Both the position numbers and the translations under genes were made by a program. Below, piece after piece: positions 3,192-36,196 of a DNA stretch of 64,000 nt; the stretch's first letter is position 1; each line of letters opens with the position of its first letter. The notes beneath the pieces were generated by a model, which saw nothing but the letters and a program-made list of their open reading frames with translations, was not told where the DNA came from and ran no database searches. This stretch comes from a virus. The stretch covers positions 1-64,000 of the IMG/VR virus record IMGVR_UViG_3300020411_000483. One strand, 5' to 3'.

Positions 3192-4793
3192 TTAAAACTC
3201 TGCTCTTTTCAAATCTGCGGGGTCAGGTTGAATTTCTTCCTGTGCAGGAGCTGCTTCTGCGCCAGCAGCAGGGTCAATTCCTGCCTCCATTGCAGCTAAT
3301 TCTTCAGGGCTTTGTATGATACCTGCTTCAGTTTCTTCTTCTATCTGCTTATCAATTTCCTTGATTTCAACGTCTGTCTGCTTAAGTACTTGACGACGAA
3401 TGTAGTCCACAGAGAAGTATTTGCCTACAAATGGATCCATTGTAGCAACTTGATTCATCCTCTCATTGCGGATTTCAATCTCTTTTAATTCTGTGAAGTA
3501 GTTGTCAGCAACATAATCAAACTGGATATGCTCCTTCATGGTATCCCAGTCTTCAAGTGTTACAATACCTTTAAGAACAAGTTGAGTTTTGAGCAAATCA
3601 ATAAACATCTCAGAGAAACGTTTACGCAATCTTGCGACAAACTTCTGGAATTTAACTTCGTCTCTGGTTATCTCAGCAGCACGACCAATGTTAAATGTAG
3701 TCTCTGTCTCCAGTCTGGAGTTAGGTACGTTTAATGACTTGTATAATTTCTTCTGGAAATACTTAACGTCTTCTAATTCACCTAAGTTTTGTCCACCTGG
3801 TAGTGTAGTAATCTCAGTACCTCTACCACCTTCTCTCCTAGGTAACCAGAAATCTTCTAGCATAGAAAGGAATTTCTTATCATCCTTAATCTCACCAGTG
3901 TTAGCATCATATACAAGTTTGTTTCTGTAACGACCCATTACCTCACGGAGGTATTGCTCTGCTTTATTCTTAGGTAAGTTACCAACATCGATGTAGAATA
4001 TTCTACGCTCTGGTGCTCTTGACAATCTGTATATAACAAGAGAGTCTTCAATCATCCTTAACTGGTTGACTGCTTTAATTGCTTTATGCAAATGACTCAA
4101 TGTCATGTTCTTATTCAAGTCCATGATACCTGAATGAACATAACAAATAGAATCTGGAGCAATCTTTAATCCCTGTGTAGGAGTTTGATTCTTCAGACCC
4201 TTTGGATCGTATAGGTAGTATGATGCAGACCTTTGAGTCAACATCTCATTGATTCCTAATCCTGGTCTTAAATCCTGTTTCTTCTTCTCGTGCTCTGAAA
4301 CCTTACGGATTTTACGAGGATCAATGTAACGTAATTCTATTAGACCTTCTCTAGGTTTCTTAGGGTCTATTACCTTATGATAAAATAATCTCCCATCAAC
4401 ATACCAGCGACGGAAGATTTCATAACTTCTATTTTCAAAATCTAATAAGCGAAGAATCTCTTGGAATTCCTCCCTCATTATTTTCTTAATCTTTTCTCCA
4501 ACCTTTAAGTTGGACAATTCTAATTCTACTGGGACATCATCAAAGTTACCACAAATAGTTTCATTAACGATATCATCAACAGCAGCATCACACTCAGGTT
4601 GTAGAACCATCTCTCTATAACGAGAGATTAATTGAAATTCATTTCTTACCTGACCATCAAAATCGATAGAGTAACCATAGTGACCACCCCCTGCAACGGG
4701 TTGTGATCCATCCAGGTTATCTTTTTGCACGAAGGAAGGCCCCTTCGGAGCCTTCTTCTTGCGATCTAACGAAAAACCAAATAGCTGAGACAT
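3192..4793 (-). CDS. gp20: Portal vertex protein gp20
   Basis: Dodecameric portal through which DNA is packaged and ejected; it also nucleates the prohead. The 533-aa product has the family opening (MSQLFGFS, then a 'GGHYGYSIDFDG' segment) and conserved central stretches such as 'RRWYVDGRLFYHKVIDPK' and 'RAPERRIFYIDVGNLPK', long used as marker regions for cyanophage typing. Length is near T4 gp20 (524 aa). The C-terminal about 60 residues are acidic and Ala/Pro/Glu-rich. A perfect late box lies 33 nt upstream of the ATG, and the gene is followed directly by the core protein. Confidence 0.96.
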   Translation of the reverse strand: MSQLFGFSLDRKKKAPKGPSFVQKDNLDGSQPVAGGGHYGYSIDFDGQVRNEFQLISRYREMVLQPECDAAVDDIVNETICGNFDDVPVELELSNLKVGEKIKKIMREEFQEILRLLDFENRSYEIFRRWYVDGRLFYHKVIDPKKPREGLIELRYIDPRKIRKVSEHEKKKQDLRPGLGINEMLTQRSASYYLYDPKGLKNQTPTQGLKIAPDSICYVHSGIMDLNKNMTLSHLHKAIKAVNQLRMIEDSLVIYRLSRAPERRIFYIDVGNLPKNKAEQYLREVMGRYRNKLVYDANTGEIKDDKKFLSMLEDFWLPRREGGRGTEITTLPGGQNLGELEDVKYFQKKLYKSLNVPNSRLETETTFNIGRAAEITRDEVKFQKFVARLRKRFSEMFIDLLKTQLVLKGIVTLEDWDTMKEHIQFDYVADNYFTELKEIEIRNERMNQVATMDPFVGKYFSVDYIRRQVLKQTDVEIKEIDKQIEEETEAGIIQSPEELAAMEAGIDPAAGAEAAPAQEEIQPDPADLKRAEF

Positions 4794-4825
4794 TATATTT
4801 TTTGACTTAGTTTAAATCCCTACCT

Positions 4826-4833
4826 TATTTATA
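4826..4833 (-). promoter_or_regulatory. Late promoter of gp20
   Basis: Minus-strand TATAAATA in the gap between gp19 and gp20, 33 nt before the gp20 ATG. The box sits in the loop of an imperfect inverted repeat (about 4811-4841). Confidence 0.78.
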
Positions 4834-4849
4834 GGGGTTTGGAAGTCGG

Positions 4850-5452
4850 TTATTTCTTAGCCGCTTCAGGAGTCCAGTATTGGACTTGTAGCTCAACAGT
4901 GAATTCTTCCACTGCGTCGTTACTTCCGAAGTCTAAGTCTATTGCAGCAACGTTACTTGGGAATACGTTGTAGAATTTATAACCTTTAAGAATCTTAGGA
5001 GCCTCAGTCTTATTACCTGTTGCTACAGTTGCACCTGTGTCTCTGGCAAGTTGCCAAACACTCATGTCTGCAAAGTAACCAGTTGAATCACTGTCGTCAC
5101 CTAATGTGCCAGCAGCAGTAAAGTTTTCATTACTTGCTTGAATTGCGTCAACCCATAACTCGAATGCATTCCTTAAGACGAAACCAGAATCATTCATGAT
5201 TGTGATTGTCCATGGCTCGAATGTACGGTCTCCAGCAATCTTTAATACTCTTCCTCGGAAGGGTACTTCAATTACTCCGATTTGTGATGCGGGTAAATTA
5301 GCAGCTCTAACTGTAAACTTTCCAAGGTTTGAAAGTGCTGCGTCGTTTATTATACCTGTTGGGAAGTTTAAATCCACCTGAAACAGGTTAGGGCGAGCGA
5401 AGTCGGATACAACACTTGCCTTAAAGTCATCAATAGTGCCTCTAATTGCCAT
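4850..5452 (-). CDS. gp19: Tail tube protein gp19
   Basis: Hexameric rings of gp19 form the inner tail tube. The 200-aa product begins MAIRGTIDDFKASV and continues with 'DFARPNLFQVDLNFP', as in the T4-like tube family; T4 gp19 is 163 aa. The segment 'PFRGRVLKIAGDRTFEPW' at about residues 64-81 is a family signature. It has its own CTAAATAG late box 25 nt upstream and is separated from sheath gene gp18 by a strong terminator, so tube and sheath are transcribed as independent units here. Confidence 0.95.
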   Translation of the reverse strand: MAIRGTIDDFKASVVSDFARPNLFQVDLNFPTGIINDAALSNLGKFTVRAANLPASQIGVIEVPFRGRVLKIAGDRTFEPWTITIMNDSGFVLRNAFELWVDAIQASNENFTAAGTLGDDSDSTGYFADMSVWQLARDTGATVATGNKTEAPKILKGYKFYNVFPSNVAAIDLDFGSNDAVEEFTVELQVQYWTPEAAKK

Positions 5453-5476
5453 TGTTTTTTATAGCTCCGTTTGCAA

Positions 5477-5484
5477 CTATTTAG
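5477..5484 (-). promoter_or_regulatory. Late promoter of gp19
   Basis: Minus-strand CTAAATAG, 25 nt before the gp19 ATG and directly downstream of the gp18 terminator. Confidence 0.68.
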
Positions 5485-5503
5485 ACTTTCCGCTTTTTTG
5501 ACA

Positions 5504-5530
5504 CAAAAAAAGAGACCCCGTAGGGTCTCT
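5504..5530 (-). terminator. Rho-independent terminator after gp18
   Basis: Perfect 8-bp stem (5511-5518 with 5523-5530; AGAGACCC pairing GGGTCTCT) closing a 4-nt loop that reads UACG on the transcribed strand, a UNCG-class stable tetraloop with C-G closing pair. It is followed on the minus strand by seven U (5510-5504). It lies between the gp18 stop (5549) and the gp19 promoter. Confidence 0.93.
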
Positions 5531-5548
5531 TGATTGTTTTTATTTAAT

Positions 5549-7807
5549 TTAACCAGCAACCTCAGCGAAAGAAACGCCAGTTCTTGTTGCTACGAATGTT
5601 AGAGTAATGTAGTTAATCGTGCGAGTTGGTTTCACGAATATCTCTGCGTAGAATTCTCCACGGTCAACAGATGCTGGTGGGTTATTCTCCTCGTCACACT
5701 TGACTAAGAAGTCTGTTACACCACGACGACCTTGGACATCTCTCAAGTATGGCTCAACAATGTTGAGGAAGAGATTTCTTTGTGCCTCATCGTTTTGCTC
5801 GAAGAGTTGTGTCTTAGCAGCAGTGCTAATAACTCTCTCGATAACAAGGAATAAGCGACGGACGTTGATTCTATCGAATGCACTTGCGAATCCTTGAGCA
5901 GTTTTGTCACCGAATAATACGATGCCTTGTCCTGGGAAGGAAACAACAGGGTTAATTCTATTTGCATAGAGGGTATCACGCTGTGTCTTGTTAGGTGAAT
6001 ATGCAATTTTAATTGCATTTCTTAATCCACCACGAGAGAAACCAGCAGGTGAGAACCATGGTTCTGCTATCTCAGCAGTTTGAAGTACTAGTCCAGCAAT
6101 GTCTCCGTTGCAAGGGACATAACGATAAACATCATTATACTTGTCATAGATGTACTTGTAACCAGAGTCAAATACGCAATAGTTACTTGAAGGTAACTGG
6201 TCGAAGTAATCAACTATATTTGTTGTAATTTGTGCAGGGTCAGTTATACCAATAACGTCTGCTCTTGTTGGTGAGAAGAATGCCATGCAGTCACGACGCT
6301 CTTCAACAATGTTTGTAATTGATGTTGCCTTAGCAATAGCAGCAGCATCCGTTGCACCAGCTGGTCCAGAAAGGATGAAGTCAATTGTTTGTGATTCAGG
6401 GTCATCAACTAAACCATATGCAGTAGCGATGTCAGTATTAGAAACTGTATATACACCTGAGCCAGTTGTATATGTTGCACCACTTGCTAGGCGATAGTAG
6501 TGTGTTGAGTTGGACTTAGATCCAATTGTGATAGCACCACTTGGATATGCAGTAGTACCAGCAGCGGAACGAAGTAGGTTAAATCTGCGGTTGATAGCAG
6601 ATAGTGACCAGTTACCATCTGAAGCAGTTGCGTTTCCTGTGAAAGGAGCAGCTTCATCAGATCCCCAATAGATGTATTGTGACTTCTGCTTGATAACTTC
6701 TTTGTAGTAGTTAACTTCACCAACAGAAGACTTACCGTCAGTTGCTTTAGATACACCAACGAATCTTTCTAAGATTGATCCAGGGTTACCAGTAATTTCT
6801 CCGTCAACGTCAACAACCAAGATATGTAATTCATCATTCTCTCCACCAACTGAGTTAGCGTAGATAGAAGTTCCAGGTCTTGGAGCAACGTTAATCCACT
6901 TAGAACCAGGTAGATACTCACGCTCTGCATACTCATTTCTTACTGAAGTAACAGTAGCAGCGTTAGATGCACTGTCTGTAAGAGCATCAGAAGCAGCGAA
7001 GTCGATGCTTGCTTTGTCCTTACCAATGTAAAGAAGACGAGTAATACCAGCAGTACCGATAACAGCAGTGTTACTTCCTTGAGTTACAGTCTGACCATCA
7101 GCGATGATACCAGTAACACCACCTGAAGGAATACCGATTTCAAGAATCTTGTTACCTGCATCCCATGCTAGGACATCAACTGCTTCAGCAGAACCACCAA
7201 TTCCGATACTTGTAGAAGCACCAGGTACGAATGTTCCAACTAGAGTTGTTACTGTTAGACGAATTGAATACTTATATACTTTACCTTTTGCACCTGATGC
7301 AGCAGTTAGAGCTAAATCTTCAGCATATCTCCACTCGTTACCTGATCCAGGAGCAGGGATTACAGCAATCTGGTCAGGACCAGCGTCTGTTGCGAAGATA
7401 CCTAGGGAGTTTCCAAGTAAGCCAGGAGTTCTCGATGCATAAGTCCAAGCGTTGCTATTGCTACTCTCGTAAGTTGTCTCGTAGTCTTGTAAATTCTTGA
7501 TTAAAGGAGCAGTACCTGTATCAACAGCATTCTTCAATGCACTGTCATTGATACGGATAGTCTTTAAGATACCACCATAGGATAAAAACTGTGCAGCAGT
7601 AAACCAGAACTCATAGTTGTTCTCATTCGGCTCACCGAAAACTGAAACCAGACTCCTTTCAGAAGCGATTTGCACAATCTCTTCGACTGGCCCTTGTGCA
7701 AATGGAGCTGCTAAAACTCCGATATTAAAACCAGCTGGAGCAGTTACGGTGGTAAGATCCCTTTCCTGTACTACTACACCTGGAGAAAGCTGATTAGAAA
7801 CGCCCAT
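5549..7807 (-). CDS. gp18: Contractile tail sheath protein gp18
   Basis: Sheath subunit that contracts to drive the tube through the host envelope. The 752-aa product begins MGVSNQLSPGVVVQERDLTT, the classical sheath N-terminus, and its C-terminal region (about residues 560-752, containing 'NPVVSFPGQGIVLFGDKT' and 'NVRRLFLVIERVI') is the conserved sheath core that makes the handshake interactions. It is about 90 aa longer than T4 gp18 (659 aa). Much of the extra length is a Gly/Val/Thr-rich beta segment at about residues 185-270, resembling small modules in other structural proteins here. It has its own late box 42 nt upstream and a strong terminator downstream. Confidence 0.95.
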   Translation of the reverse strand: MGVSNQLSPGVVVQERDLTTVTAPAGFNIGVLAAPFAQGPVEEIVQIASERSLVSVFGEPNENNYEFWFTAAQFLSYGGILKTIRINDSALKNAVDTGTAPLIKNLQDYETTYESSNSNAWTYASRTPGLLGNSLGIFATDAGPDQIAVIPAPGSGNEWRYAEDLALTAASGAKGKVYKYSIRLTVTTLVGTFVPGASTSIGIGGSAEAVDVLAWDAGNKILEIGIPSGGVTGIIADGQTVTQGSNTAVIGTAGITRLLYIGKDKASIDFAASDALTDSASNAATVTSVRNEYAEREYLPGSKWINVAPRPGTSIYANSVGGENDELHILVVDVDGEITGNPGSILERFVGVSKATDGKSSVGEVNYYKEVIKQKSQYIYWGSDEAAPFTGNATASDGNWSLSAINRRFNLLRSAAGTTAYPSGAITIGSKSNSTHYYRLASGATYTTGSGVYTVSNTDIATAYGLVDDPESQTIDFILSGPAGATDAAAIAKATSITNIVEERRDCMAFFSPTRADVIGITDPAQITTNIVDYFDQLPSSNYCVFDSGYKYIYDKYNDVYRYVPCNGDIAGLVLQTAEIAEPWFSPAGFSRGGLRNAIKIAYSPNKTQRDTLYANRINPVVSFPGQGIVLFGDKTAQGFASAFDRINVRRLFLVIERVISTAAKTQLFEQNDEAQRNLFLNIVEPYLRDVQGRRGVTDFLVKCDEENNPPASVDRGEFYAEIFVKPTRTINYITLTFVATRTGVSFAEVAG

Positions 7808-7848
7808 TAGTAAAACTCCGTTTGATTAGTGCATCGTTTGTCTAAGAA

Positions 7849-7856
7849 TATTTATA
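7849..7856 (-). promoter_or_regulatory. Late promoter of gp18
   Basis: Minus-strand TATAAATA, exact consensus, in the gp17-gp18 gap, 42 nt before the gp18 ATG. Confidence 0.8.
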
Positions 7857-7867
7857 ATTTTGAAACG

Positions 7868-9541
7868 TCACCTATACTCCCACATGTAAGAACTATCCCC
7901 GTACTCTCCTACAGATGCGGAATTCTCAGCAACCTTCCACACATCTCCCTGAGCATCTTTAAAAACTTCTTCCTCAAATCCGTCGCTCACAAAACCGAAT
8001 GGAGCCATGTCTTGCTCAATTGCTTCTCTCTGATCTCTATAGATTCTTGCTCTAACATCAGTATCATTAAGCTCTTTAAAGTATTGCTGCATAGCAAGCC
8101 AAGCAAAAATAACCATACACATAGCAAGGTCATCGTTACATCCTTCTTCCGCTTGGAATGATTGTCCCTTTTGAATGAATGTAGTTAACTCTGCAATACA
8201 TTCATAATCTGGAATCAATAATTTATTATCTTCTACTAATACTTTTAAGTTGGAACAACCAACTTGCTTAACAGCAGTAGACATCTTGACTCCCATCTGT
8301 GTCTTCTTACCTGAGAATCCTTGTCCTACCTGTTGTCCTGCTCTACCCCGCATTGCACACATGAGTAGATTATCATACTCTAAATCATACTGAATAATAT
8401 CCGCTACCTGACCACCAACATCATTTACTTCTACTAATATAAATGCACCATTATAATTTCTAGCAACATCTACCAGTATGTTAGGGAATAGAATAGGTTT
8501 AACATCATTATTTCTATATCTAGCAACTATCTTATAGGGGATTGTTGTTGTATCAACCACCAGAAATGCAGAATAATCACCAGATACGCCCCTTGCAACG
8601 TCAGCAGTGATAACGTAGTTATGCTTTTCCTCGACATTTTCATAAATTGCTAGACCTTTGTTTTCATTAAGTGGATCCTCATATGTCATAGTCCTCAATG
8701 CAGTAGGACTAATAAGAGTGTCAACTGATCCTAAGAATTCACACTCAAACTCAACTTTGAATTGCTGCTCTGAAGTGTTTGCAATGGTTTGCTCTTTCCA
8801 TCTAGCATCTCTACCAGGTACTTGAGACCAATGAACCTCAGTTGGTACATATTCATTCTTCTTTCTTTCAGCATCATGCCAAAGTTTATAAAACATATTC
8901 ATACCGTGTGGGGTAGAAATGATTATAACTTTAGTTTTCTTACCAGAAGATATAGTAGGATAAACTGAACTAAAGAATTGGTCAGCAATATGATTCGGTA
9001 CGAATGCAAATTCGTCTAAGAATATAACGTTGAATGACATACCACGAACTGCTGATGCAGAAGTGGATGCTGCCATAATCTTACTACCATTCTCTAATTC
9101 CAGACTACCTTTATTCCATTCGTTAATACCCTGTTGCAACCAACGTGGTAAATTTTCATAAGATAATTGGAGACGACCAAGCATTTCCCTAGCCGTTGCA
9201 GCTTTGTTTGCAAGAATTGCTACGTTTACATTCTGATTAAACAGGACATACCATAAAAGATATGCTGTAACAATTGTTGACTTCCCAGACTGTCTAGGTA
9301 ACTTTGCTATATTGAATCTTTCAGTATGAAACTTCTGCACCATTTCCTCTTGGAAATCGTACATATCAAAAGAGACTAAACCTTCATCCAGAGATACAAT
9401 CTTTAAGTACTGTCTGATAAAGTATATTGGATCATCAGCACATTTAAGATATTCCTGAATCTGATCAGGTGTAAAGTCCTCAGAAACGTTTGCCTTTTTA
9501 AGGTTCGGGTTACCTAAGTATATGTCTTGGGCTTTAGCCAT
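7868..9541 (-). CDS. gp17: Terminase large subunit gp17
   Basis: ATP-driven packaging motor and headful nuclease. The 557-aa product has a Walker A-type loop PRQSGKST at residues 82-89, a Walker B VIFLDE at 172-177, and a nuclease-domain start around 'ITADVARG', where the first catalytic Asp is expected. Length is close to T4 gp17 (610 aa). Its first codons overlap the end of the 63-aa membrane protein gene by 8 nt, so they are likely coupled. No late box directly precedes it; the nearest one (10223-10230) precedes the nuclease gene two genes upstream. Unlike in T4, gp17 is separated from the small subunit gp16 by a cargo island of about 2.3 kb. Confidence 0.97.
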   Translation of the reverse strand: MAKAQDIYLGNPNLKKANVSEDFTPDQIQEYLKCADDPIYFIRQYLKIVSLDEGLVSFDMYDFQEEMVQKFHTERFNIAKLPRQSGKSTIVTAYLLWYVLFNQNVNVAILANKAATAREMLGRLQLSYENLPRWLQQGINEWNKGSLELENGSKIMAASTSASAVRGMSFNVIFLDEFAFVPNHIADQFFSSVYPTISSGKKTKVIIISTPHGMNMFYKLWHDAERKKNEYVPTEVHWSQVPGRDARWKEQTIANTSEQQFKVEFECEFLGSVDTLISPTALRTMTYEDPLNENKGLAIYENVEEKHNYVITADVARGVSGDYSAFLVVDTTTIPYKIVARYRNNDVKPILFPNILVDVARNYNGAFILVEVNDVGGQVADIIQYDLEYDNLLMCAMRGRAGQQVGQGFSGKKTQMGVKMSTAVKQVGCSNLKVLVEDNKLLIPDYECIAELTTFIQKGQSFQAEEGCNDDLAMCMVIFAWLAMQQYFKELNDTDVRARIYRDQREAIEQDMAPFGFVSDGFEEEVFKDAQGDVWKVAENSASVGEYGDSSYMWEYR

Positions 9542-10417: not shown

Positions 10418-10780
10418 TCACTCAACGTGAATCACCCCCTTCATTCCAGCACCAGCATGTGGATCACATTGAAACTCAAAATCTCCTGCTTCTGTAAAAG
10501 TAACTGGAAATTGCTCTCCACTCATAAATGCTAAGTCGGGATGAGATAACTCATCATGTCCTGCAAATACTACATTGTGAGGAGGTAACTCACCATTCAC
10601 AAATGTAACTGTATCTCCAACACTAACTGTTAATTCATTTGGTTCAAAAATTAAATTTCCCCCAGAACCCATTTGTATAGTATCAGCAGCATATGCTTTT
10701 GCTGCCAACGTCATTGATAATGCTAAAGATGTTAGCATGATAGTGATTCTACTCATCCACCACATTATTTGGTGTTTCAT
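10418..10780 (-). CDS. petE: Plastocyanin (photosynthetic electron carrier)
   Basis: Type-1 copper protein carrying electrons from cytochrome b6f to photosystem I in the thylakoid lumen. The 120-aa product has an N-terminal basic/hydrophobic signal peptide with a likely cleavage after AYA (residues 29-31), leaving about 89 residues. All four copper ligands are present: His68 in PPHNVVF, Cys105, His108 and Met113 in QCDPHAGAGM (Cys-X2-His-X4-Met). It is therefore expected to be functional, an auxiliary gene known from several marine cyanophages. A strong Shine-Dalgarno AAGGAGGA lies 7 nt before the ATG, inside the 3' end of the preceding 53-codon gene. No late box lies directly upstream, so it probably depends on the promoter at 10979-10986. 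Confidence 0.97.
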   Translation of the reverse strand: MKHQIMWWMSRITIMLTSLALSMTLAAKAYAADTIQMGSGGNLIFEPNELTVSVGDTVTFVNGELPPHNVVFAGHDELSHPDLAFMSGEQFPVTFTEAGDFEFQCDPHAGAGMKGVIHVE

Positions 10781-30817: not shown

Positions 30818-33800
30818 TTACTGAGTCCTTGCTATTGTTTGGAACTCGATGCTCTTAATTCGATAAGAAGCACCACCGTTTCCTACCAGTTTTTCACCAC
30901 CTAAAATCGCTTGTGCAACTGCGGTTGTGCCACTTGAAGGTGCAGCGATTGTTATTGTTGGGTGAATATTATATGTATTGTCTACAGTCTGTTTATATCC
31001 ATAACCACCATTAGTTATGGTTATAGATGCAACTTGGTCTCCAGCAGCAGTTAAGACTGCTGTACCTGTTGCCTGTATATCACCAATAGCTTCAATAGTA
31101 ACTCCTGGTACTGAGCTATAGTTAGTACCAGCATTCTGTATATTGAAATCTATTATAGTTCCTGTATCGGAGAATTTATACAAGTAACCAGCAACACCAA
31201 CGTTAACATTACCTGTATTAAATGGTATGATATCACCAACTATCAGTTTACCTGTGCTTGGGTTCCAAGACACTACAGTGCCTTTAACACCAGATACATC
31301 ACCAGTTACCACTTCATTAACTGCATAATTATTTCCATTACCATCATTAGCATCAATAGTGATTTCCATTAATGCTGTATGAGGCACACCTTCATTCAAT
31401 GCACCAGCAGATGTAATTGTTGCATACTTGAATGGAATGTCTGCATCTTTAATACTGTCTCCAGCTTGGAATAGGGTTGTGTTTGTGCCACCCTGAGTTT
31501 CCTCAATACCATAAAGTGAACTGAATATACCACCTTCGAGTGATATTTGGTTTTCAAATTCTGTTCCTGTATTTACTAGGTCAGGAATACCGTCTCCAGC
31601 ACCAGAGTTTTCTGCGATATCTTGGAATTTCTTATCTTGTAATGTTGTAATAGGTACTGTTAATGTAGTAATAACATCACCAGGTGAGTTTAATACCACG
31701 TGTGGTTGGAATCCTGAGTTAGCAGAATCAGCAACACCAGCATCAAACTGTACAATTGCATCTTCTGTAGATGGAATACCTGCATCAATGAATGCCAATT
31801 CATCAACTTCAAATGCTACAAGTAATTCTCTTGTCTGAGCATTCCAGTCATATACTTTTGCTATCTTGTTCTGGGCATTTTCAACCCTTCTAATTACTCG
31901 GTCACCAACATTAAACTTATAGTTTGAAGTGCCATCAGATAGATTCTGTCCACTATCAAGAATAACACGTTGGTCATAGTTGAAATTAAGACCTCTTGTT
32001 ACATTACTAAACTTCTCTCTTGATTTGGAAGAATATGAAACTGTCTCATTTCCAATAATTAATTTACCTGAACCTGGATATGCGTCTGTAGAATCAACAT
32101 ATATCTCAGTCTGACTAGCAGTCATATTTGCTAGTAGTCCAGTTAGATAGAATGCTGTAGAGTTAAGTGACTGTCTAGCAGCAGTCTTCCTCTTAAGATT
32201 AACTAACTTAGTAAAGATAACATTAGGAGCAGAGGTAAATCCTTGACCTTGCTCTGTTACTGTAATACCAGTAATTTTACCTTGACTTACTTGAGCAGTT
32301 GCTCTAGCACCAATACCGCCACCACCAGTAATTAAAACATAAGGTGGTTCTTGATAGAATTCACCAGCATTTACAACACTAATAGATGTAACCTTACCTG
32401 TAACATCAATCTTTGCAGCACCTTTAGCGTTTTGTCCACCACCACCTTCAACAATTAGAGTAGGAGGAGTAGCAAAACTTCTACCTGGGTTTAATAATGC
32501 AAGACCTGTAACAGTTTGGACGGTAGGAGTTGCAGTAGCACCAGTACCTCCACCACCTAAAATCTTTGCTTCTGCTGTACCAAAGTAACCATCACCAAAT
32601 TTCTCCATCCTAATGTAAGAAACTTTACCAGCATCAGCACCTGTTCCCAATACAACTTCACCTTCTGCACCACTAGGGAATTCTGTAGGAACATCTCCTA
32701 AAGTATCACCTTCAAATGTAGGTACTCCTCTAAACTGAGGTCCAATAACATAAGGATAAACAGGATTACCTGAACTATCCTCTGTCATAAAGTAAGCATA
32801 AGTGCCGTTTGGATACTCTGGAGTAGTAGCAAATCTACCATTAAACTTATCTAAAGTTGCACCAGAAACAGCAGAATCCCAGATATAGTCTTGAGTTAGG
32901 TCACCCATTAAGTAACCATCTTGGACTAATCTAAATCCCATATCAGCTGTTGAATATGAGAATGTATAAAGTAGTCTAGGGCAATCTGTTCTGGGAGCAA
33001 ATGTTAAACGTCTTTGGGTTGCAGCATTAAATCCTGAAATATATTCTGTATATGTCTTAGCAACTCCATCTAACTCATAGGTAACACCTTCTGTATGTAA
33101 GATTGAAGTATCACCATTAGCAGTACCAGCCGCTTGCCAACCATTTTCTTGTGTGCTTAATAACAGGAAGTTACTATTATTAGTAGCATGATCCTGATTG
33201 AAAACGTATGTCTTACCTCTGAATAAATTTAAGAATTGTACTTCACTACCACCGACATAGAATTTGCCATTAGATACGGTAATAGTCTGTGTTACTGTAG
33301 ATGCTGTAACAACAGCAGGTCTAGCACCGTCAATTTCAACACCAGTTTTTAATCTATATCCTGATACTTCTCTAGCAGCAACACCAGAAGAATTGTATCC
33401 CCAAGGTCCATAGATTGGATATCCATCATAGGACATACCTAAAATCTTAGAATGTCCATCTGCATGTCTACCGTAGTCAGGACCAGTAGCAAAGAAATCT
33501 GTAACGTAATAATTATTAGTTGGTGTAAAATTCTCTACTGTAGAATCAAGAATCATATATCCTTCATCACCAGTATATCCAGACATATATCTGTGATACT
33601 TACAGTAATAATAGATTCTATTAGTCTCATCAGCATTCATCAAGAAGAGTGGCATAAACTCATTCTCGTAATCAGTTGCCCAACCAGCATCTGATCCAGT
33701 GCTATTTGTGTATAGTGTGCCACCATTTAACAGACCATCTTGTGTGGTACTGAATTGCATTGGGTGACCATGTTGATGTGTCTGAGAAGGTTGGTTACTT

Positions 33801-34966
33801 GTATCAGATTGATTCCACTTAATTAGATAATTTCTTTGAACCTTAATGTTTTCAGGTGATAGATACCATCCATTAACATCAAAACTACCAAATTCAGCAG
33901 CATCAGGTCCAAAATTAATATAGAAAAGACCATTAGGGAATGTAGTAGGGTCATTATTAATGGTCATTTGGAAACCATTTGCACCTAACAGATTATCTCC
34001 ATTAGCAAATGTGCCATTAACAAGTCTTACATATACTCTCTGGACAATACCAGAACCATTTCTAACAATTTTTGCAACTTCACATGTTGCATTACCACCA
34101 ACTTTTTCAATAAGTCTACCAACTTCAACACTTCCCATCGTCTCAGAGACGTTACCAACAGGAAGCATTAAGTTATCAAATTCTGTTTTAATATTCCAAG
34201 TGAATGTTTGTATGAAACCATTTTGAAATGGTCCATTCTTTAATGCTAAATGATTGATTAGTTTATTTGAATGATAATAATAAACGTTATTATCAACTGC
34301 ACCACCATAAACATCACTATTTTTAATGAATGATGACTTTACAGTATCTAAACTGAATCCTACAGGGACATCACTATGTCCTTGTCCCCATTCTGGAGTA
34401 TGGAGTAACACTCCATTTGCCATAATACCCAAAGCCTTATTCTTCTGGTCAGGTCTTGGTTCAGCAGCAGGTACGTCCTTACCACCTCTATATACGAATG
34501 CTTGATTGAAATTTCTATCTACTAAAGGTCCACCACCTGGTGCTCTTTCTGTGCCATAGTCAGCAGGTTTTGGATGATTATCTGAAACAATAGTTAGTCT
34601 GTCTGTTGCTCCTGAAAATGATGCTGTTGTCGTTGACTGCGGATTGCTTTGCCATATTCTATTAATGTCAAATGACGTAACAACGTTTGGCGTATCAGAA
34701 GTTGGTAAAATGTTGAGTCTGAGTGGATCATAACCCCTCCCTTTGTTTAATACTCGTACATGGACAATCCTACCTGACGCATCGTCAATGATAGGATAGA
34801 GTATTGCTTCTTCATCTGGTGTGCCACAACCAGTAACAGTTAGTCTTGGTGGATCCGCAGAAGTATAATCCTTCCCTCCTTCCAAAACTTCGACTGCTCT
34901 AACACCAAATACTTCGTTGAATAATGGTTTGATAGAAGCACCAGAACCAGGTATCGTCCTCGCCAT
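30818..34966 (-). CDS. Virion structural protein with cupredoxin-like and YHYH domains, 1,382 aa
   Basis: Starts MARTIPGSGASIKPLFNEVF. A beta region at about residues 370-465 ends in YYYCKYHRYMSGY, with the Cys-X2-His-X2-Met ligand pattern of amicyanin-type copper sites; a His-rich HQHGHPMQF segment about 50 residues earlier could supply the fourth ligand. A YHYH domain begins at 'SYDGYPIYGPWGYN' (about residue 515) and its second half ('FNGRFATTPEYPNGTYAYF') appears at about 700-725. Between them is an insert of about 115 residues with 'FRGKTYVFNQDHATNNSNF', again cupredoxin-like. The second half of the protein has GSGY-type repeats, one 'QTEIYVDSTDAYPGSGK' module (about 960) and VTGDVSG modules. 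No leader peptide. It is a probable tail or baseplate adhesin, unassigned in T4. Confidence 0.8.
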   Translation of the reverse strand: MARTIPGSGASIKPLFNEVFGVRAVEVLEGGKDYTSADPPRLTVTGCGTPDEEAILYPIIDDASGRIVHVRVLNKGRGYDPLRLNILPTSDTPNVVTSFDINRIWQSNPQSTTTASFSGATDRLTIVSDNHPKPADYGTERAPGGGPLVDRNFNQAFVYRGGKDVPAAEPRPDQKNKALGIMANGVLLHTPEWGQGHSDVPVGFSLDTVKSSFIKNSDVYGGAVDNNVYYYHSNKLINHLALKNGPFQNGFIQTFTWNIKTEFDNLMLPVGNVSETMGSVEVGRLIEKVGGNATCEVAKIVRNGSGIVQRVYVRLVNGTFANGDNLLGANGFQMTINNDPTTFPNGLFYINFGPDAAEFGSFDVNGWYLSPENIKVQRNYLIKWNQSDTSNQPSQTHQHGHPMQFSTTQDGLLNGGTLYTNSTGSDAGWATDYENEFMPLFLMNADETNRIYYYCKYHRYMSGYTGDEGYMILDSTVENFTPTNNYYVTDFFATGPDYGRHADGHSKILGMSYDGYPIYGPWGYNSSGVAAREVSGYRLKTGVEIDGARPAVVTASTVTQTITVSNGKFYVGGSEVQFLNLFRGKTYVFNQDHATNNSNFLLLSTQENGWQAAGTANGDTSILHTEGVTYELDGVAKTYTEYISGFNAATQRRLTFAPRTDCPRLLYTFSYSTADMGFRLVQDGYLMGDLTQDYIWDSAVSGATLDKFNGRFATTPEYPNGTYAYFMTEDSSGNPVYPYVIGPQFRGVPTFEGDTLGDVPTEFPSGAEGEVVLGTGADAGKVSYIRMEKFGDGYFGTAEAKILGGGGTGATATPTVQTVTGLALLNPGRSFATPPTLIVEGGGGQNAKGAAKIDVTGKVTSISVVNAGEFYQEPPYVLITGGGGIGARATAQVSQGKITGITVTEQGQGFTSAPNVIFTKLVNLKRKTAARQSLNSTAFYLTGLLANMTASQTEIYVDSTDAYPGSGKLIIGNETVSYSSKSREKFSNVTRGLNFNYDQRVILDSGQNLSDGTSNYKFNVGDRVIRRVENAQNKIAKVYDWNAQTRELLVAFEVDELAFIDAGIPSTEDAIVQFDAGVADSANSGFQPHVVLNSPGDVITTLTVPITTLQDKKFQDIAENSGAGDGIPDLVNTGTEFENQISLEGGIFSSLYGIEETQGGTNTTLFQAGDSIKDADIPFKYATITSAGALNEGVPHTALMEITIDANDGNGNNYAVNEVVTGDVSGVKGTVVSWNPSTGKLIVGDIIPFNTGNVNVGVAGYLYKFSDTGTIIDFNIQNAGTNYSSVPGVTIEAIGDIQATGTAVLTAAGDQVASITITNGGYGYKQTVDNTYNIHPTITIAAPSSGTTAVAQAILGGEKLVGNGGASYRIKSIEFQTIARTQ

Positions 34967-34969
34967 TTA

Positions 34970-36196
34970 TTAAGTTACTACGTTGATTGTACCGTTCATC
35001 AATGCATGTAATGTGCATTGGTAATATAGAGTTGTTGGAGCATCCATAGGGACAGTCCAATATAAAACTGTGATTCCACTACCAGTTTGACCAGCAGTAT
35101 ATGGAGTCCCAGCTAATCCAGTTGTGCTCTGAATTCTGAATGGGTGACCAGCACCTTGGACAGAATTATCAAATGCATAAGTTTGTCCTCTCTGGACATA
35201 TAACGTTGGGTCATTTGTAGCAGCAGAGAAACCTGGTCCAGAGAATGTATAATGGTCTGCACCATCAGCATTCACTTCCCACCAAGTAATTGGACTACGG
35301 GTTGGTACCCAGTTTGTGCCATTGTAGAAGAGTGAATCTCCTTGGACAAGACCACCAATATTTGTATCAGTCAGAGCAGCAAATGTTGTAGTCAGAGTTC
35401 CAGAGAAATTAACTGTCAAAGTATCCCCAGAAACGGCTGTGGTAATGTTTGTACCACCAGCAATCGTTAGAGTATCAGATTGTGTATTAGCAGTAGTGGA
35501 TCCTGTATCACCAGCAACTGATGCCCAAAGGTTAAGTGAGGATATACCTGAGTCATCATCAGCAGGTGCCCACTTACTTGTAGAAGAATTCCACTTTAAA
35601 ACTTGATTATTTGTAGGTGCAGCAGTATTTGTATCAACGTCAACCAAATCATTAACACCTGAATATTGTGTCAATAATTTTGCTTGGGTAGCACCAACAC
35701 CACCAGCAGTAATATTAATGTTTACATATGGATTATCATCACCGTTAACTGTAAAGAAATATCCCTTATATGATGCAGCAGCAGGAGAAGCAGCAAGTGA
35801 TGCCCACTCATTCTTATACTTTACTGTCGTAGGGAAATCAATTCCTCCACCAGAACCCGCAAATGTATTGGTAACACCACCAACGCCAAGTGTTAAGTTA
35901 CCCGTGCCATTCGGAGCGATATTGATATTTCCATTACTTGAAGAAACAATACTATTACCGTTAACATCCAAACCAGCAGTGAGGTTTGTATAGTCAGATG
36001 GAAGAAATGTCGATCCATTATATCTAAGTACCTGTCCTACAGCAGCATTGGTAACACTAAGTTGCAACGTAGTGCCATTACCTATACCAGTGTATATTTC
36101 GTTAAAATTGTCATTAATCTTGTCACCACCAACTCTCAGGGTATCACCCGTGTTGTCGTTAGCTGCAGTACCAAGACCTAGCGTTTGTTTAGCCAT
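34970..36196 (-). CDS. Virion structural protein with C-terminal cupredoxin-like domain, 408 aa
   Basis: The N-terminus (MAKQTLGLGTAANDNTGDTL, then 'KINDNFNEIYTGIG') is a widespread attachment motif of cyanophage fibre-type proteins. The middle is Ser/Thr/Gly-rich. The last about 110 residues ('PTLYVQRGQTYAFDN' to 'TINVVT') fit a cupredoxin fold with His351 in HPFRI, Cys394, His397 and Met400 in QCTLHALM, that is Cys-X2-His-X2-Met. All four ligands of a type-1 copper site are therefore present. It lacks a signal peptide and is followed 3 nt later by the 1,382-aa gene with the same motif. Copper binding or electron transfer is untested inference. Confidence 0.8.
   Translation of the reverse strand: MAKQTLGLGTAANDNTGDTLRVGGDKINDNFNEIYTGIGNGTTLQLSVTNAAVGQVLRYNGSTFLPSDYTNLTAGLDVNGNSIVSSSNGNINIAPNGTGNLTLGVGGVTNTFAGSGGGIDFPTTVKYKNEWASLAASPAAASYKGYFFTVNGDDNPYVNINITAGGVGATQAKLLTQYSGVNDLVDVDTNTAAPTNNQVLKWNSSTSKWAPADDDSGISSLNLWASVAGDTGSTTANTQSDTLTIAGGTNITTAVSGDTLTVNFSGTLTTTFAALTDTNIGGLVQGDSLFYNGTNWVPTRSPITWWEVNADGADHYTFSGPGFSAATNDPTLYVQRGQTYAFDNSVQGAGHPFRIQSTTGLAGTPYTAGQTGSGITVLYWTVPMDAPTTLYYQCTLHALMNGTINVVT

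Follow-up and report, generated by a model that had tools for sequence, protein, structure and literature searches.

A candidate type-1 copper site in a cupredoxin-like domain of the baseplate protein gp9 of a T4-like cyanophage

The C-terminal domain of the baseplate protein gp9 of a T4-like cyanophage is rather likely to be a true cupredoxin, whose intact His-Cys-His-Met type-1 site would hold a structural copper at the joint with the tail fibre. This reading combines ligand conservation among homologues, a predicted structure and analogy with phage T4. The gene lies in a stretch of 64,000 nucleotides (hereafter the window) taken from an IMG/VR virus record of 74,020 bases, the gene content of which is that of a T4-like cyanophage. 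Both the fold and the site are known ones; their location, in the virion baseplate, is new. No description of a phage virion cupredoxin was found in the open literature searched, which includes few subscription journals or preprints.

The identity of the protein was examined with family profiles. The 408-aa open reading frame at 34970..36196 (minus strand) matches the full-length family profile of the baseplate wedge/tail-fibre connector, phrog_677, over residues 1-407 (E 1.5e-191), and its N-terminus matches PF07880, T4_gp9_10_N (E 4.7e-8, score 33.7 for a cut-off of 25). It is 66-74% identical to the annotated gp9 of most cultured Kyanoviridae isolates. Judged by these matches it is gp9, the connector of baseplate and long tail fibres in a T4-like cyanophage. 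An earlier note on this DNA, made from the letters alone, had called it a probable tail or fibre protein; it is a virion protein as the note supposed, not a generic fibre but the fibre connector of the baseplate. The cupredoxin-like stretch forms the final ~95 residues, and the domain itself was placed at residues ~315-405 (34982..35254, minus strand) from the AF2 model, the Foldseek and VIA matches and a comparison of the family profile with PDB sequences.

The putative copper ligands were located by residue check and alignments. They are His351 (codon 35144..35146), within the stretch GHPFRIQ; Cys394 (35015..35017), the candidate thiolate ligand and the sole cysteine of gp9; His397 (35006..35008), the second histidine; and Met400 (34997..34999), the candidate axial ligand, all on the minus strand and with the spacing H-x42-C-x2-H-x2-M. 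Residues 351, 394, 397 and 400 do read H, C, H and M, as the earlier note had it, and the C-x2-H-x2-M loop has the amicyanin spacing that it described. Its further statement that order and separation suit a blue-copper site agrees with the family profile, in which all four residues align with the ligands of plastocyanins. Chance was considered as a source of the motif and rejected: when the pooled proteome of the window (19,903 aa) was shuffled 2000 times, the pattern H-x34-54-C-x2-H-x2-M arose in 6 shuffles, the actual proteome holds two occurrences, one in gp9 and one in gp10, and the motif is conserved in homologues. An intrachain disulphide was also ruled out as the reason for the conserved cysteine, since no other Cys is present in 73 of the 76 complete and distinct gp9 sequences.

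Structure was predicted with AF2 for residues 290-408, on an alignment of 31 sequences whose members, like those of the family profile compared with the PDB, had been chosen for carrying the four ligands. The model (pLDDT 82.3, pTM 0.79) places these residues at canonical cupredoxin positions; at this level, that of strands and loops, the ligands are not set apart in the predicted fold, the outcome that the earlier note had named as refuting its proposal. In model numbering, strand 100-105 is closed by the Cys (105), the next strand runs from 112 to 118, and His (108) and Met (111) occupy the intervening loop; the first His (62) stands just ahead of strand 64-67, which is the cupredoxin arrangement. 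All the top-ranking matches, from Foldseek and VIA alike, are cupredoxins. Foldseek against the PDB gave rusticyanin (E 8.6e-5) as well as AcoP, amicyanin and pseudoazurin; VIA gave the N-terminal domain of the Hyphomicrobium nitrite reductase (Z 10.4, rmsd 2.7 over 99 residues), rusticyanin (Z 8-9.4) and also laccases. With the family profile, plastocyanins came on top of the PDB sequences (E 0.0019, four ligands aligned), followed by copper nitrite reductases, pseudoazurin and amicyanins. In the Pfam search the gp9 domain of the window did not reach the cut-off of PF00127 (Copper-bind), and its sole match, PF25489, scored 16.7 bits, under the cut-off of 27. A P-SSM2 relative does reach PF00127 (23.3 versus 21.2), but no single stretch of it passes E 0.01 alone. 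The model and the profile matches support a cupredoxin (blue-copper) fold for the end domain, with the predicted ligands at their standard positions.

Conservation of the ligands was followed through several sets of homologues. As a control for bias, 43 distinct complete gp9 C-termini were gathered with gp9 residues 1-192 as query, i.e. blind to the domain, and all 43 carry the four ligands in the order H...C-x2-H-x2-M; so do all 76 distinct complete gp9 sequences, and HP...C-x2-H-x2-M was read in each of eight further isolates inspected singly. Across ten divergent domains from myoviruses and one podovirus (27-66% identical to the first), only seven columns are invariant: H, P, G, Y, C, H and M. 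When all collected copies were grouped and made non-redundant at 90%, ~124 of the 130 copies outside the second domain of gp10 kept all four ligands at a median pairwise identity of 37%, one truncated read being among the exceptions. The conservation that the earlier note had named as a check on its proposal is found in these sets; one alignment (A4) was built from ligand-bearing copies exclusively, so that the invariance of the ligands there holds by construction and is no evidence of conservation. The proline after the first His is present in 120 of 121 copies. The ligands are retained despite loop variants (C-x2-H-x2-M, C-x2-H-x3-M, C-x2-H-x6-M, and C-x4-H-x2-M in S-SKS1) and a His-Cys distance that ranges from 43 to 64 residues. 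Two alignment-based classes, HCHG and HCHA, had been taken for losses of the methionine; this was wrong, the Met being present at a longer spacing.

Where ligands are lost, the losses are mostly all-or-none. The fibre copy of S-B43 has lost H, C and H jointly. The gp10 copy of S-RIM4 retains H, C and H and has lost the Met alone, which resembles type-1 sites lacking the axial Met. A few partial losses were seen, namely a copy reading RCFM (L164) and copies on a Prochlorococcus sp. AG-418-C09 contig (L263). The latter contig, of 189 kb and of either host or phage origin, encodes at 3393-9062 a protein of 1890 aa that contains the domain four times, with the ligands lost to differing degrees.

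This pattern bears on a first alternative, according to which the domain is a metal-free beta-sandwich of copper-protein descent that keeps the four residues for packing or hydrogen bonds only. Phages assemble in a cytoplasm with almost no free copper, which counts against copper loading and for such a sandwich, as does His-Pro in place of His-Asn at the first ligand. Packing alone, however, predicts frequent single substitutions, whereas the ligands are kept or mostly lost together, and they survive loop insertions. The neighbouring gene adds evidence on both sides. It adjoins the gp9 gene at 30818..34966 (minus strand) and encodes a gp10-like baseplate wedge subunit of 1382 aa (phrog_708, E 0 over residues 1-1381; PF14240, YHYH, E 2.1e-15) that contains two further copies of the domain. 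The first, at residues 371-463 (33578..33856, minus strand; family HMM E 1.2e-25), is an intact cupredoxin-type domain with H401, C455, H458 and M461, and the four ligands are kept in 52 of 52 aligned copies. The second, at residues 577-667 (32966..33238, minus strand; family HMM E 1.1e-13), is a ligandless cupredoxin-like domain: none of its 37 non-redundant copies has all four ligands, and the His position is freely N, Q, E, D, S, L, F or K. The model of gp10 residues 352-760 was poor overall (pLDDT 56) and its better stretches were used alone; the best match of the ligandless stretch in this low-confidence model is auracyanin (Z 6.8, weak by the tool's own note). From these sequences and this model, the sandwich fold would seem not to require the four residues. 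The ligandless copies show that the sandwich can serve as a structural unit, which speaks for the metal-free alternative; they also show that the second copy tolerates the loss of the ligands, which speaks against it. Because the ligandless copy keeps the fold, something else must account for retention of the ligands elsewhere, most simply selection for a metal site. On balance we regard the metal-free sandwich as unlikely.

Other features were recorded in gp10 and beyond the gp9 gene. The YHYH domain (PF14240) has its best stretch at residues 685-731 (32774..32914, minus strand) by Pfam match, and the YHYH domain of gp10 is a predicted zinc-dependent hydrolase (PMC7824862). Residues ~353-760 bring together the intact cupredoxin, the YHYH domain and, beside or inside the latter, the ligandless cupredoxin, i.e. 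two possible metal centres in one protein. ARAGORN reports a tRNA-Ile (anticodon aat) at 32848-32936 (minus strand), within the gp10 coding sequence; this call is probably spurious. On the other side of the gp9 gene, a 7858-aa open reading frame (36219-59795, minus strand) probably encodes a giant virion protein; short segments such as SLTFTCAxDSNxTxHTYPR recur in it many times, and one stretch of it (WAFDGNPIYGPYGY) is YHYH-like.

The candidate site was compared with known copper proteins. Like plastocyanin, amicyanin and pseudoazurin (PF00127), the gp9 domain has the predicted cupredoxin fold and the same ligand order; unlike plastocyanin-type proteins, which are free electron carriers, it is part of a large multi-domain virion protein. 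Its best structural matches, rusticyanin and the N-terminal cupredoxin domain of the Hyphomicrobium denitrificans nitrite reductase (2dv6), share only 22-25% identity with it and belong to respiratory electron chains, not to a virion. The context of the first ligand also differs, being His-Asn in plastocyanins and His-Pro in the phage domain, a difference that could affect the hydrogen bond normally made to the Cys sulphur. Multicopper oxidases have His-Pro (HPF) at their first type-1 ligand, so that His-Pro in the phage domain does not exclude copper. The likeness to their type-1 centres extends to the laccase structural matches; the gp9 domain differs in being a single domain without the ligands of a trinuclear cluster. 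A Cys-His2-Met site filled by another metal (Zn, Ni or Co) was considered in this context, recombinant cupredoxins being able to take Zn instead of Cu. We hold this to be very improbable, Cys-His-His-Met in a cupredoxin fold being the type-1 copper signature and the nearest folds and sequences found all being copper proteins.

The window also encodes a plastocyanin, as the earlier note had reported: petE, at 10418..10780 (minus strand), is a separate cupredoxin that matches PF00127 (E 1.8e-20) and phrog_515 PetE. The tie that had been drawn between this gene and the virion domain is not supported. Among Prochlorococcus-phage records, 21 match the domain and only 8 match petE, and the gp9 domain is present in phages without petE; the presence of petE in the window is incidental to the virion domain. 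Comparison of the family with the single window plastocyanin by hhalign was uninformative (probability 3.7, E 0.012, 25 columns), the family profile search of PDB sequences being the more sensitive of the two.

The distribution of the domain extends well beyond gp9. The gp9 domain is matched by 351 phage records, nearly all marine cyanophages, and the gp10 copy by 216. It was also found in fibre and spike proteins of P-SSM2, in the fibre of the podovirus P-GSP1, in S-TIM5 and in others; the carrier proteins include tail fibres, baseplate wedges and spikes, the last with S74 chaperone domains. On this evidence, tail fibres, spikes and baseplates of marine phages share the domain as a mobile module. 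It is also present, together with cadherin, Ig-like or lectin domains, in large proteins encoded on SAR86, Bacteroidetes and Prochlorococcus contigs. Proteins of ~2,650 aa with one four-ligand domain each are encoded on four SAR86 contigs (L255, L257, L260 and L269); in the one scanned, from L257, it is accompanied by cadherin and RTX repeats, which puts the module in apparent cellular surface proteins. Fold matches of the gp9 domain in BFVD include "beta-sandwich proteins" of Marseillevirus and pithovirus.

Such company is what one would expect of a receptor-binding or copper-bridged adhesion module, in which the domain, or an exposed copper His, would touch the host surface; its occurrence in fibres, S74-chaperone spikes and baseplate wedges, and next to cadherin, Ig-like or lectin domains in large cellular proteins, is in favour of this. 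The gp9 copies are nevertheless well conserved (mean column conservation of 85% in 43 non-redundant gp9), when receptor-binding tips are usually variable, and in T4 the C-terminal part of gp9 grips the fibre, not the host (PMC3004832). We give adhesion a low probability.

The structural role that we favour is modelled on T4. There, gp9 serves as the long-tail-fibre socket, binding gp7 through its N-terminal domain and receiving the fibres coaxially on its C-terminal domain (PMC3004832). The window gp9 has the same annotated baseplate role and a homologous N-terminal part (PF07880; PDB 1pdp, E 0.0012). The sequence alignment with T4 gp9 covers residues 3-61 only, and beyond this N-terminal part no sequence similarity to T4 gp9 was detectable. 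The fibre-socket role is an analogy with T4 gp9, though the part of gp9 shared with T4-like phages other than marine cyanophages is just the N-terminal ~45 to 64 residues (the first ~45 in those of enterobacteria and vibrios). By this analogy, the N-terminal part would be anchored at the baseplate rim with the long tail fibre docking on the C-terminal domain, and the cupredoxin would most likely be the fibre-socket joint, or else an adjacent host-facing adsorption module. In P-GSP1 and P-SSM2 one copy of the domain is located close to the N-terminus of a fibre protein, a position that fits the role of a joint. Copper, acquired from seawater or from the host as it lyses, would be mainly a tightly held structural cofactor that braces the sandwich at its loop end, with one ion per gp9 chain, or about three per trimer. 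Electron transfer is a weaker possibility for this site.

One form of electron transfer would be a redox-active or sensing copper, exchanging electrons with the host surface or periplasm, or being reduced by it, and thereby helping to trigger the baseplate switch. Type-1 sites are classically electron carriers, intact sites are present in both gp9 and gp10, and T4 gp9 binds the C-terminal domain of gp10 during the switch (PMC3004832). Neither a redox partner nor an electron path is known, however; podovirus fibres contain the domain as well, as do spikes without this baseplate, and the copper-type domain of gp10 is not established as the equivalent of the C-terminal domain of T4 gp10. This makes a redox or sensing role quite unlikely, and structural copper at the fibre joint remains the preferred reading.

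Since the ligands are unchanged in very distant relatives, cyanophage virions probably carry copper. The Ferrojan Horse hypothesis reportedly places iron in phage tail-fibre proteins; the present case is similar in that metal ions, here putative, would be built into the adsorption apparatus, and different in that the iron is in fibre proteins while the copper would sit in a cupredoxin-type site of a globular domain. The paired intact and ligandless copies of gp10 constitute a natural control for the contribution of the metal. A bolder view, to which we attach little credence, would make copper metalloparticles of the virions of the dominant marine T4-like cyanophages, with loaded type-1 sites in gp9 and gp10 whose redox state or occupancy controls fibre docking or baseplate triggering at host contact. 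Few viruses in the sunlit ocean are as numerous as the T4-like cyanophages. If the present reading is true, copper would be located inside virus particles, and a copper site in the adsorption machinery would tie cyanophage infectivity to a trace metal that, in the same waters, is scarce yet toxic at slightly higher levels.
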